NCBI RefSeq assembly: GCF_040958095.1
Contig: NC_091237.1
Span: 15,601,036-15,665,035 of the forward strand
Direction of reading: 5' to 3'
DNA: 64,000 nt
DNA from: Procambarus clarkii
Lineage: Eukaryota; Arthropoda; Malacostraca; Decapoda; Cambaridae
Position numbers and translations under genes: made by a program. The notes under the pieces are model-generated. The model did no database searches. It was given only the letters and a program-made list of their open reading frames with translations, and was not told the DNA's origin. Positions 47,985-63,095 of this stretch are shown here, one piece after another. Position 1 is the first letter of the stretch. Every line of letters starts with the position of its first letter.

Positions 47985-48051
47985 ATGATGACCGCCACAA
48001 CACACCAGCTGCTGCTGCTCCTGCTGCTGGGAACGTTACTTCCTGTCCAGT
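47985..48051 (+). CDS. Chimeric receptor exon 1: signal peptide
   Basis: [20 protein letters not shown] then VQ and one base, before the donor gtaaga. This is a classic signal peptide with a poly-Leu core. Two further in-frame ATGs upstream (47904, 47955) would add 27 or 10 residues. I chose 47985 because the hydrophobic core should sit close to the N-terminus. The one-base phase matches exon 2, but 4.3 kb separates them and no transcript confirms the link. Confidence 0.7.
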
Positions 48052-63000: not shown

Positions 63001-63095
63001 GCTATGTCACTCTCTTCTTCCGTCCCCACGTCCTTGAGGCGCGCATCATGACCACCCTCACAGCCCTCCTGGTCTTGGCTACACTCTTCGCACAG
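47985..63095 (+). CDS. Chimeric pentraxin / C-type lectin / LDLa / Cys-loop ligand-gated ion channel receptor; 3' end beyond window
   Basis: Exons 47985-48051, 52368-52577, 52913-52994, 53160-53334, 54139-55441, 56925-57139 and 62868-63095 join without a phase conflict into 760 codons. Order: signal peptide (1-22); pentraxin-like domain (about 24-205, WYQLCLTYD at 121-129, then WDSVLSR); C-type lectin domain (about 228-354, EPN at 322-324); spacer; LDLa module (453-487, six Cys, [10 protein letters not shown]); channel ligand-binding domain from about 513 ([18 protein letters not shown]); a 13-residue Cys-loop [15 protein letters not shown] (635-649); TM1 (714-735) and TM2 (742-760). TM3 and TM4 are missing because the window ends. 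This architecture predicts a surface channel whose ectodomain can bind glycans or microbial patterns. That is inference from domains. Extra small exons in the long introns cannot be excluded. Intron 6 carries an antisense LINE. Confidence 0.9.
48210..48372 (+). repeat. Degenerate telomere-like CCTAA-rich stretch
   Basis: More than fifteen imperfect taacctaaccc / cctaacctaa words interrupted by substitutions. The arthropod telomere repeat is TTAGG (CCTAA on this strand), so this resembles an old interstitial telomere-like tract or a CTAACC-rich simple repeat. It directly precedes a (TA)n tract. Confidence 0.7.
48391..48481. repeat. (TA)n microsatellite
   Basis: About 90 bases of pure alternating TA. 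Its length is probably polymorphic and uncertain in assembly. Confidence 0.97.
48490..49000 (+). mobile_element. Reverse transcriptase C-terminal fragment of a non-LTR element
   Basis: It opens with [20 protein letters not shown], then shifts frame into 138 codons with [56 protein letters not shown] and [21 protein letters not shown] recognise this as the C-terminal block (VWD-TCVDT..., FHFVPVAVET-type, [19 protein letters not shown]) of a retroelement family widespread in invertebrates. It lies between two (TA)n tracts. Confidence 0.8.
49189..49315. repeat. (TA)n followed by (GT)n microsatellite
   Basis: About 100 bases of TA running into about 20 bases of GT. The Tyr/Ile repeat ORFs on both strands are artefacts. 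Confidence 0.97.
49420..49620 (+). repeat. Degenerate tandem repeat, units about 25-35 bp
   Basis: Repeated phrase caatacatctgtggagtgca with variants (aatacatcggtggag, caatacacctatggagtgca, caatacacccgtgagtgca). It is a diverged minisatellite. Confidence 0.8.
49793..50090. repeat. Interspersed repeat, SINE-like
   Basis: It begins gttcaagttcaagtacgttt, attgagac, then atcaaagggatagagtagct and taggctatttctacccccc. It ends in a head-like segment (aggcgtggttgtctagtggt ... gtggtcccagggttgaaccg) with tRNA-like spacing of A and B boxes on the plus strand. The assignment is tentative. Confidence 0.45.
50450..50512 (+). repeat. 21-bp tandem repeat, 3 units
   Basis: Three copies of gtggtcgtacactactcact + c/t, directly adjoining. 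Confidence 0.92.
51008..51022 (+). repeat. Homopolymer G tract
   Basis: About 15 G in a row within receptor intron 1. Confidence 0.9.
51471..51509 (+). repeat. 39-bp direct repeat, copy 1 (partner at 52754-52792)
   Basis: agtcagttattcactcagat, then tgcgagttaggaagatata, is identical at both sites, 1283 bases apart. The two copies bracket receptor exon 2. Confidence 0.93.
51504..51675. repeat. (TA)n microsatellite
   Basis: About 170 bases of alternating TA with two TG/TT interruptions. Confidence 0.97.
52137..52232 (+). repeat. Foldback-family repeat, single arm
   Basis: gcaggcgatgagtcacaata, acgtggctaaagtatggtcc, aggacggaccgaaacgtcgt and cttctagtgtgtggtctggt match the right arm and flank of 23509-23690. 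Confidence 0.85.
52368..52577 (+). CDS. Chimeric receptor exon 2: pentraxin-like domain, N-terminal part
   Basis: 210 bp. The acceptor is gtccttccag and the donor is gtagga. It encodes [18 protein letters not shown], then [20 protein letters not shown] (the first pentraxin cysteine region) and [16 protein letters not shown]. It ends with one base of a split GAG codon. Confidence 0.88.
52578..52912 (+). other. Chimeric receptor intron 2
   Basis: 335 bases, holding the second copy of the 39-bp direct repeat (52754-52792). It ends in the acceptor tctcaacag. Confidence 0.8.
52754..52792 (+). repeat. 39-bp direct repeat, copy 2
   Basis: Identical to 51471-51509. Homology stops at the (TA)n tract present only in copy 1. 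Confidence 0.93.
52913..52994 (+). CDS. Chimeric receptor exon 3: pentraxin-like domain, middle
   Basis: 82 bp encoding [20 protein letters not shown] then TKLRTF, with split codons at both ends (G|AG and AG|G). The donor is gtgcgt. It is too short for ORF finding and was placed by phase continuity. Confidence 0.85.
53160..53334 (+). CDS. Chimeric receptor exon 4: pentraxin-like domain core
   Basis: 175 bp after a long ctctctctctcag acceptor. It encodes [20 protein letters not shown] (the pentraxin 'W--LC-TYD' signature with the second conserved Cys), [13 protein letters not shown] and SFSGALSQ in phase 0. The donor is gtaact. Confidence 0.92.
53389..53490 (-). mobile_element. LINE 3'-end fragment
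   Basis: tgtactcacctatttgtgct, then ctctcaactgtcaatcaact and ggtgtacagatttctgagc, match 2411-2510 and 33085-33170. Confidence 0.75.
53491..53586. repeat. (GA)n and (GTGA)n microsatellite
   Basis: About 62 bases of GA followed by gtga tetranucleotides. Confidence 0.95.
54139..55441 (+). CDS. Chimeric receptor exon 5: pentraxin end, C-type lectin, LDLa and start of channel ligand-binding domain
   Basis: One 1303-bp exon in phase 0, starting [10 protein letters not shown]. The C-type lectin part has paired Cys ([27 protein letters not shown]), the WKVGEPNG carbohydrate-loop motif and W/G core residues. Next comes a spacer with [15 protein letters not shown]. The LDLa module reads [20 protein letters not shown] then [11 protein letters not shown]. 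The channel domain then begins: [36 protein letters not shown] take the donor at 55442 (gaag|gtagag) because it gives the usual loop length before the Cys-loop. An earlier in-phase donor exists at 55340. Confidence 0.93.
55915..56230 (+). repeat. Interspersed repeat family X, copy 2
   Basis: Collinear with 39888-40190; see that entry for shared landmarks. The two copies have the same orientation. Confidence 0.75.
56250..56445 (-). mobile_element. tRNA-derived SINE, second family
   Basis: On the minus strand the head reads cttgggctggacggtagagc (A box region) and ggtcagcgttcaatccccg (B box). A body repeats aagtggttgg, and the tail reads gtgctatatagtcgtaatgg then cttggcgctttctcctgat. The tail resembles the 3' UTR of the RNase H LINE remnant at 26955-26990. 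Confidence 0.82.
56925..57139 (+). CDS. Chimeric receptor exon 6: Cys-loop
   Basis: 215 bp. Two bases complete GTG, then 71 codons ending LLLEYE in phase 0 before the donor gtctgt. It contains [16 protein letters not shown] and the signature loop [15 protein letters not shown] (13 residues between cysteines, with the invariant YPFD). Confidence 0.95.
57372..57497 (-). mobile_element. 3'-truncated copy of the LINE family, abutting the full-length element
   Basis: gtaattacctaagtgtagtt through cctccaccaccttctcacc repeats the sequence at 57510-57640 almost exactly, followed by (TG)n. It is a dead 3' end next to the live-looking one. Confidence 0.9.
57555..60470 (-). CDS. LINE ORF2: endonuclease-reverse transcriptase, 971 aa
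   Basis: It copies element RNA at a nicked chromosomal site (target-primed reverse transcription). An AP-endonuclease-like domain (about 25-258) has N32, the TETK motif with E59, GDFN at 174-177 and SDH at 249-251. A linker follows. The reverse transcriptase (about 480-750) has [38 protein letters not shown] (catalytic D613), [10 protein letters not shown] at 670-679 and FADD at 700-703 in place of the more usual YADD. The C-terminal region has [11 protein letters not shown] and [16 protein letters not shown]. No stop or frameshift; all catalytic residues I can check are present. It has no RNase H domain. Confidence 0.95.
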   Translation of the reverse strand: MVHKGKPTKSIERGGVKNKERGNKFLKIAYTNIDGVRSKILELSDVIQLQTPDIVALTETKLEDVILNEVIFPRGYSIWRRDRKIRKGGGVAVLVKEHLKVKEIMTANPQEVDIIALEICYEDDKLMMINAYSPPPSSTWSKEELDSKREGLITIMREIIARADNDRSRLLIVGDFNLKSIDWEAYEAKTEDFWTCKFVDLILETFLYQHVKQATRMREGDVPSMLDLIFTRKEEEIFDIQYLPPLGKSDHVFLGIKYAMRYKLEENKEVEAVEKPDFRRGHYGDLRNFFSEYNWTDLMLGKEVNEMYVKFCEIYDKGTKKFIPKQRCRTRKQDWFNRNCERARDRKTQKWNQYRKRPNPQTYQRYKDARNNYTAVRREAERNFEKGIADKCKTEPGLFYKFINNKLQVKDNIQRLKMGNRFTEDEKEMCETLNEKFQSVFVQNEIFREPDTIRIPENNIEHIEVSRDEVEKMLKELGKNKAAGPDGVSPWVLRECASELSIPLHLIFQASLCTGIVADGWKQANIVPIYKSGSREDPLNYRPVSLTSVIVKVLEKLIKTKWVEHLERNDIISDRQYGFRSGRSCVSNLLSFYDRATEILQERDGWVDCIYLDLKKAFDRVPHKRLFWKLENIGGVTGKLLSWMKNFLTDRKMRAVIRGNVSEWRNVTSGVPQGSVLAPVMFIVYINDLPVGIQNYMNMFADDAKIIGRIRNLDDCHALQKDLDKISIWSTTWQMEFNVNKCHVMECGIGEHRPHTTYILCEKSLKNSDKERDLGVVLDRKLSPEDHIKNIVQGAYAMLSNFRIAFKYMDGDILKKLFMTFVRPKLEYAAVVWCPYLKKHINKLEKVQRHATKWLPELKGKSYEERLEALNMPKLEDRRKRGDMITTYKIVTGIDKIDREDFLRPGISRTRGHRFKLAKHRCRRNIRKFTFANRVVDGWNKLSEKVVEAKTVSSFKALYDKECWEDGTPRA
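60437..61486 (-). CDS. LINE ORF1: coiled-coil RNA-binding protein
   Basis: 349 codons from the first ATG. The likelier start is the tenth-codon ATG at 61456 (aagATGGCC context), giving 339 residues from [17 protein letters not shown]. Residues about 30-190 are heptad-like and highly charged ([20 protein letters not shown]; coiled coil). Then comes an RRM-like segment ([31 protein letters not shown]) and a basic C-terminus ([20 protein letters not shown]). It resembles the trimeric nucleic-acid chaperone ORF1 of L1 and CR1 elements. It overlaps the ORF2 start by 34 bases, suggesting coupled translation. Confidence 0.85.
   Translation of the reverse strand: MFTVQRRTFKMATGKGKNKTELDFEGFNEESIDISSLHNKLVNLDTIVNSHVEIISKLKESNDHLNSKVLCLEGLVKDLRKDKNQLETNCKAMEEENKLLKIALEEVKVNLNINDYNRLGKEIQQEKQLLSAQMEEVTQGIEQCKKDMQLTYAQVAKEKEKIEEAVKEVKHCSNQDKTNIRLEVRKELASNPKLVQNTVDRSKSLIIFGCKEKAITSRSERAVEEAKVVDKIVGLVEGLTNRENVCDYRRIGRYVKGKDRPLRITLNGAKQMEEVLRNARKLQRDEDGKGWSLRRDLSKEDREKLKLNLAEAKHLNESRNEEEINSFFYKVIGVGKPVKWYIKANQQNQ
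61692..61741. repeat. (TG)n microsatellite at the LINE 5' side
   Basis: About 50 bases of pure TG just beyond the LINE leader. It may mark the insertion boundary. Confidence 0.95.
62868..63095 (+). CDS. Chimeric receptor exon 7: TM1 and most of TM2
   Basis: 228 bp, 76 codons, phase 0 at both ends. The acceptor is tttctaaagcag and the donor is gtgaga. It encodes the pre-TM1 strand [22 protein letters not shown]1 [20 protein letters not shown], the cytoplasmic turn RPHVLEAR and TM2 [18 protein letters not shown]. Leu at 9' is kept. The exon with the end of TM2, TM3 and TM4 lies beyond 64000. Confidence 0.95.

Follow-up and report, generated by a model that had tools for sequence, protein, structure and literature searches.

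A complete crayfish gene joins pentraxin and C-type lectin modules to a Cys-loop channel in one chain, as a member of a family of candidate glycan-sensing channels

The American lobster genome paper (2021) reportedly introduced a novel class of chimeric receptors in which pattern recognition is coupled to neurotransmitter binding. The gene analyzed here lies in a 64,000-nucleotide stretch of the genome of the crayfish Procambarus clarkii (contig NC_091237.1, positions 15,601,036 to 15,665,035 of the forward strand; hereafter "the window," with positions counted from its first letter) and encodes lectin modules together with a Cys-loop channel; since this kind of chimera has reportedly been described, the gene is regarded as a new member. 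The present analysis adds a complete gene, a proof of the fusion within single reading frames, a census of one genome, the loss of transmitter contacts, a changed ion filter, and the finding that most of the pentraxin domains detected are attached to channels. In a report on Homarus gammarus, ligand-gated channels, pentaxins, and C-type lectins are each listed separately as expanded (PMC13286009). The fusion is not described in the titles or abstract starts of the literature matches listed, nor is the chimera described in the accessible portions of PMC13286009, PMC13372173, PMC11257295, PMC9391574, PMC11708212, PMC9394032, PMC8166319, and PMC11526382; in the accessible portion of PMC12355661, none of the terms sought occurred and the chimera is likewise not described.

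The lectin modules and the Cys-loop channel form one chain, and no guess about splicing is needed to recognize this. Seven exons on the plus strand between 47985 and 63095 join in phase into a stop-free frame of 760 codons, with AG preceding exons 2–7 and GT following exons 1–7. The preliminary description of this locus had proposed seven phase-compatible exons, and the coordinates that it names agree with these. That description had also placed the first two transmembrane segments (TM1 and TM2) in the chain; both are present in exon 7, and the channel is completed beyond the window, where exon 8, starting 704 bases beyond the end of the window and 1.6 kb after exon 7 in the adjoining 10 kb (L021), supplies TM3 and TM4. 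The completed product of the eight exons is 861 amino acids long, contains seven NxS/T sites, and has four hydrophobic segments in its channel part. The parts of the gene are as follows.

47985..48051, plus strand: exon 1, putative signal peptide; ends in phase 1, with GT at 48052.
52368..52577, plus strand: exon 2, N-terminal part of the pentraxin/laminin-G-like domain.
52913..52994, plus strand: exon 3, small middle exon of the pentraxin domain, with matches in the C88 and C78 paralogues.
53160..53334, plus strand: exon 4, pentraxin domain (WYQLCLTYD...), reached by the Laminin_G_3 and Pentaxin matches.
54139..55441, plus strand: exon 5 (the fusion exon), C-terminal part of the pentraxin domain, C-type lectin, module X, LDLa, and first half of the ligand-binding domain (LBD) in one 434-codon frame.
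54304..54672, plus strand: C-type lectin domain (CTLD) with EPN motif (...LSDIVC), placed by comparison of profile A2 with PDB; borders approximate.
54688..54960, plus strand: module X, about 90 amino acids with conserved Cys, between the CTLD and LDLa.
54958..55065, plus strand: LDL-receptor class A repeat with acidic motif (PF00057, 4.7e-9).
55087..55440, plus strand: first half of the Cys-loop LBD (loops D, A, and E; PF02931).
56925..57139, plus strand: exon 6, second half of the LBD with the Cys-loop.
62868..63095, plus strand: exon 7, end of the LBD, pre-M1 "HRR," TM1, and TM2 (acidic −2′, Arg 0′, Leu 9′).
63036..63038, plus strand: Glu codon at TM2 position −2′, the ion-filter position.
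64704-65009 in extended coordinates (C88:15665739-15666044; L021:704-1009), plus strand: exon 8, AG acceptor, M2–M3 linker, TM3, short loop, TM4, and TAA stop.

Read along the chain, the order is signal peptide, pentraxin, C-type lectin, Cys-rich module X, LDLa, Cys-loop LBD, and TM1–TM4. Exon 1 is the least certain exon of the model: a stretch resembling it was not found in the 30 kb around a tandem paralogue on C88, although it is kept, with one extra Leu codon, in a near-identical copy on C28. When the spliced product was compared with Pfam, matches over the curated cut-offs were obtained for Neur_chan_LBD (PF02931; 8.9e-13, 48.6 bits vs. a cut-off of 26), LDLa (1.3e-8), Neur_chan_memb (PF02932; 4.6e-7, 30.8 bits vs. 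28.1), Laminin_G_3 (7.6e-7), and Pentaxin (PF00354; 1e-6, 29.0 bits vs. 25). These bear out the domain content proposed at the outset, with Lectin_C alone staying below its cut-off; the C-type lectin is supported by a profile (A2) built from nine members, namely the fusion exon of the window and those of eight relatives from the same genome. Over columns of approximately 57–175, this profile matches C-type lectins in PDB (among the best 60 of 408 matched sequences), the best being mannose receptor 2 (2e-13), tetranectin (1e-12), DC-SIGN (9e-12), and mannose-binding protein C (1e-10). Searched one by one against Pfam at E values up to 0.1, all nine members match LDLa, and eight of the nine match Lectin_C (best 8.1e-13) and Neur_chan_LBD. 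The channel part carries the Cys-loop in exon 6 (two Cys 13 residues apart, with F/YPFD) and, by hydropathy, four transmembrane segments, with Leu 9′ in TM2 and the M2–M3 linker present.

Module X is rich in Cys and almost confined to this receptor family. No Pfam model covers that stretch of the window protein, and its profile has no match in PDB (best E value 2). Within the crayfish genome, 27 of its 28 matches lie inside rows matching the fusion exon, and the remaining one lies about 1 kb upstream of such a row.

The preliminary description had argued from exon 54139-55441, as carrying both LDLa and the start of the LBD, that lectin and channel exons do not belong to two mRNAs. The exon in fact goes further, since it alone spans the end of the pentraxin domain, the CTLD, LDLa, and the beginning of the LBD. 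Three paralogue frames (L041, L044, and L046) were scanned for the same fusion. In L046, a single uninterrupted genomic frame of 522 codons yields Pentaxin (45.7 bits), Lectin_C (49.1), LDLa (27.2), and the LBD (35.1), all over their cut-offs; L041 contains the same four domains in one frame, with LDLa at 24.0 against a cut-off of 24.1; and L044 yields LDLa and the LBD over their cut-offs, a weak Laminin_G_3 match, and no Lectin_C match. Exon linkage points in the same direction. In the 4.03 Gb assembly that was searched, the fusion exon has 80 match rows, or 75 loci once neighbors are merged (five rows are the second from their locus, and short rows may be other LDLa or lectin genes), and the channel exons have 47 (exon 6), 42 (exon 7), and 41 (exon 8) rows. 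In 59 of the 80 rows, a channel exon follows downstream on that strand at a distance of no more than 60 kb, and exons 6, 7, and 8 follow in that order in 26; when the 80 rows were placed at random on 40-Mb chromosomes in 1000 trials, any channel exon was found for 0.18 rows on average and for at most 2. An artefact, in which neighboring lectin and channel genes have been joined by over-reading, could draw on the 4.2 kb retrotransposon that separates exons 6 and 7 and on the rows without a channel exon nearby. It is scarcely credible in view of the fusion of lectin modules and LBD start within single frames in the window, L041, L044, and L046, of the ordered exons 6–8, and of the identical splice structure of exons 2–8 in the tandem paralogue. 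A reading as separate lectin and channel genes is rejected on the linkage counts, the conserved splice structure, and the single frame of L046. It was also observed that a relative of the fusion exon at C45:16535851-16537191 lies within an open frame of 2174 codons.

The pentraxin domains detected in this genome are themselves mostly attached to such genes. Of 23 genome hits to Pentaxin (PF00354), 21 lie in fusion-exon rows or no more than 10 kb upstream of them on the same strand, and the two that stand apart are C27:5970544 and C80:21224769. The 23 do not include the pentraxin exons of the window gene itself, so this search misses pentraxins that are split over small exons, free-standing ones included.

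The gene is complete and under purifying selection. The tandem paralogue, separated from the window gene by about 250 kb on their common chromosome (C88), shares the splice structure of exons 2–8, with splice sites and stop conserved, and its exon 2 is 84% identical at the amino acid level. For exons 2 to 8, respectively, the ratios of nonsynonymous to synonymous divergence (dN/dS) between the two genes are 0.43, 0.45 (26 codons), 0.15, 0.25, 0.24, 0.24, and 0.64; therefore, the whole protein, head and pore, is constrained, the last exon least. A second copy of the receptor region is found inverted on another chromosome (C28, approximately 23824.5-23850.8 kb). Its main blocks are 97.5-98.7% identical to the window over 44.0-63.8 kb, with one block at 92%, and it also matches the window at 33.0-34.5 kb with 97% identity; it does not contain the retrotransposon of intron 6, and the similarity stops at a TA repeat. 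A search of the 35 kb that follow this copy did not find exon 8, and no other near-identical copy of that exon turned up genome-wide, where the hit ranking next in score is 59% identical. Either a truncated duplication or a misjoin in the assembly may account for the C28 copy.

Among solved structures, the channel part is nearest to glycine receptors (GlyR beta, 1e-24), and at E values up to 10 the best 60 of 212 matched chains are all GlyR, GluCl, or GABA-A receptors, some of them chimeras. The elements of gating are kept, namely the YPFD Cys-loop, RR before TM1, Leu 9′, and LPKTSY in the M2–M3 linker. By contrast, the positions aligned to GlyR F63, R65, F159, and Y161, which we take by this numbering to be transmitter contacts in loops D and B, hold K, Q, L, and G in the window protein, and its loop C contains no cysteines. 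The two loop-D positions read K/I, E/E, E/A, V/A, E/S, I/D, I/S, D/D, and S/H in the relatives, and none of those whose frames were aligned has the aromatic/Arg pair there. In these alignments, the glycine/GABA-type contacts compared are lost while the gating elements are retained. The unconserved loop B and D contacts and the lack of cysteines in loop C speak against the "neurotransmitter" half of the name given to this gene in the preliminary description. The missing contact residues also lower the case for a glycine-type transmitter receptor.

The ion filter is changed as well. It was compared in 24 exon-7 rows picked for diversity from the 42; two of them (C83:5889016 and C54:18772443) have no fusion exon linked within 60 kb, and a third (C25:9425037, L050) contains two stop codons and is perhaps a pseudogene or wrongly placed at one of its ends. 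The anion filter Pro(−2′) Ala(−1′) Arg(0′) occurs in none of the 24, and the window reads E-A-R. Pro stands at −2′ in one row, Glu or Asp stands there in nine, including the window, and an acid stands at −1′ in three more. In the bacterial channel GLIC, an acid at the −2′ position serves as the cation filter, and from this likeness we infer a probable cation preference for the window subfamily. These comparisons also bear on the idea that the subunits are non-conducting or auxiliary, that is, lectin receptors that use the channel frame as a membrane anchor and oligomerization scaffold. The wide variation of TM2 filter residues across the rows, the dN/dS of exon 8, which is the highest of all, and the lack of exon 8 in the stretch fetched and searched around the C28 near copy would agree with it, but Leu 9′, the M2–M3 linker, and TM1–TM4 are kept in the window gene and the dN/dS of exon 7 is 0.24, so that we consider this idea very unlikely.

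In the lectin head, the putative sugar and calcium site of the window CTLD contains EPN, Glu, and Asp of the series EPN...E...(W)ND, which we take to be the sugar/calcium motif of C-type lectins. The CTLDs of L041 and L046 contain QPD with WSD or WND; in the 12 lectin-bearing frames aligned, the window included, EPN occurs in eight, QPD in two, and neither in two. The sequence GQEQD, presumably the calcium-site motif of pentraxins, is kept in L041 and L046, and for most other relatives this region falls outside the frame examined. The acidic motif of LDLa is complete in 17 of 18 frames bearing the repeat, the exception (L042) having Asn first. Different members of the family thus seem to rely on different lectin sites.

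Near copies of the gene do not diverge evenly along their length. In the C78 cluster, the synonymous divergence (dS) between L020 and L017–L019 is 0.95 in the CTLD and 0.05-0.26 in X, LDLa, and the LBD, whereas the pattern is reversed among L017–L019 (LDLa reaching 0.20 and the LBD 0.13, against 0 in the CTLD). The trio on C73 shows 0.37-0.39 in the CTLD vs. 0-0.15 in X, LDLa, and the LBD, and the window and its C88 paralogue differ by 2.06 in the CTLD, 0.14 in X, and 0.30 in LDLa, with saturation in the LBD. Such unevenness, running in both directions, suggests that segments have been exchanged or converted between paralogues of the C78, C73, and C88 groups (L009–L020), with no fixed direction. 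Since dS differs so strongly across segments of near copies, the head and pore parts can have separate histories.

Taken together, a pentameric channel that senses glycans is favored here over a transmitter receptor with about an even degree of confidence; its ligand and its ion are inferred, and the cell in which it acts may be a haemocyte, an epithelial cell, or a sensory neuron. Five subunits would assemble into a channel bearing a lectin crown. Pentraxins often form five-fold rings; therefore, head and pore would share one symmetry and such a crown would be structurally easy. The crown would then bind a multivalent glycan, microbial or environmental, in a calcium-dependent manner, in the window member mainly through its EPN-type lectin; the bound glycan would strain the LBD so that the pore opens or is biased toward opening; and current would enter the cell, carried in the window subfamily most likely by cations, given the acidic −2′ residue. 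Paralogues differing in the sugar motif (EPN or QPD) and in the filter residues could constitute a panel of sensors. It is tempting to carry this further, as a tentative proposal well short of an even chance, and to regard the family as directly lectin-gated channels, in which five-fold crowns of pentraxin and C-type lectin domains turn multivalent microbial glycans into a mostly cationic current without a transmitter, and in which segmental exchange shuffles heads and transducers, the whole amounting to an innate "electrical" pattern recognition.

Neuronal pentraxins and proteins with LDLa or CUB domains cluster receptors in other animals, and the crayfish head might likewise place or cluster the channel in cis, at a synapse, membrane, or matrix, while a small molecule in the LBD opens the pore. 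This is possible, although doubtful. The LBD, the Cys-loop, and the coupling elements are intact, the acidic motif of LDLa is nearly always complete, and in the comparison of L020 with L017–L019 and in the C73 trio, the CTLD differs far more than X, LDLa, and the LBD do, which would suit a transducer that forms the conserved core. However, the opposite pattern holds within L017–L019, the known amino-acid contacts that were compared are conserved neither in the window nor in its relatives, and the sugar motif varies between the lectin heads of paralogues, which an anchor would not need.

Several observations weigh against the glycan-sensing channel itself. The Lectin_C match of the window is below the cut-off of 22.6 bits, with 12.7 bits for the whole protein and 15.9 bits for exon 5 alone; its CTLD has Ser in place of the Asn of WND, which is one calcium ligand position; and its pentraxin domain (exon 4) reads LGQGD at the place of GQEQD. 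Positive selection on the lectin was not found in the CTLD of diverged copies (omega 0.16-0.21), and two very close pairs show three nonsynonymous and no synonymous changes in the CTLD, which are too few to judge. As for the channel, the lost glycine contacts leave room in the LBD for a different small ligand, whose presence they do not exclude; an acid is missing from both −2′ and −1′ in 12 of the 24 exon-7 rows compared; and E(−2′) A(−1′) R(0′) is not a proven cation filter. Finally, 21 of the 80 fusion-exon rows have no channel exon within 60 kb at the sensitivity of the search, one of them (on C54) having an exon-7 match 88 kb away.

If a lectin head does gate the pore, a single protein would recognize a microbe and respond electrically or ionically in one step; we know of no equivalent link between immunity and excitability. 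The full gene, the fusion exons in single frames, and the differences in motifs (EPN/QPD and acidic/neutral −2′) supply direct constructs and mutants for studies of lectin gating.

Two further elements were recorded at the locus. Directly upstream of the gene, a minisatellite at 46507-47190 consists of a repeated 13-codon unit (LLRSSRDVLTCRH) that is open on both strands. The element in intron 6 is not part of the receptor, and its endonuclease and reverse transcriptase frame matches RVT_1 (3.6e-32) and Exo_endo_phos (2.6e-14).

57511..61701, minus strand: LINE-type (long interspersed nuclear element) retrotransposon in intron 6, with an endonuclease and reverse transcriptase frame at 57555-60524.

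With respect to known systems, the closest are the American lobster chimeras, in which immune-recognition modules are reportedly fused to a transmitter-type receptor, likewise in a decapod; the likeness is one of class only. Glycine, GABA-A, and GluCl receptors share the Cys-loop, pre-M1, Leu 9′, and the M2–M3 linker with the window protein, which differs from them in its lectin ectodomain and in missing the F63/R65/F159/Y161-type contacts and the loop-C cysteines. With EPN-type C-type lectins such as mannose-binding protein and DC-SIGN and with their QPD relatives, the family has EPN/QPD and the subsequent E-[ND]-C and D residues in common; by contrast, the window lectin sits in a channel subunit and has Ser at one calcium ligand position. 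The match to PF00354 is shared with pentraxins, although the window member is fused to a channel and is without GQEQD. Octopus chemotactile receptors are, according to a review, likewise transmitter channels turned to other ligands in an expanded family (PMC11526382). They differ in being derived from nicotinic receptors and in having the ligand pocket in the LBD, and the word lectin is absent from the text of that review (PMC11526382). A comparable role as a contact-chemosensory repertoire, with external taste or smell channels for food or habitat molecules and no part in immunity, is conceivable for the crayfish family, which is large and partly tandem; the conversion of transmitter channels into chemoreceptors has a precedent in the octopus review just mentioned, and the expansion of ligand-gated channels in H. 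gammarus is interpreted as chemosensory in the report on that species (PMC13286009). Lectin and pentraxin heads would be unusual for sensors of small molecules, however, and this role is regarded as unlikely. With 21 of 23 Pentaxin hits attached to fusion exons in the crayfish, the expansions listed for Homarus may in part reflect repeated counting of the same genes; should Homarus be like this genome, its ligand-gated channels, pentaxins, and C-type lectins would to some extent form a single set of genes.

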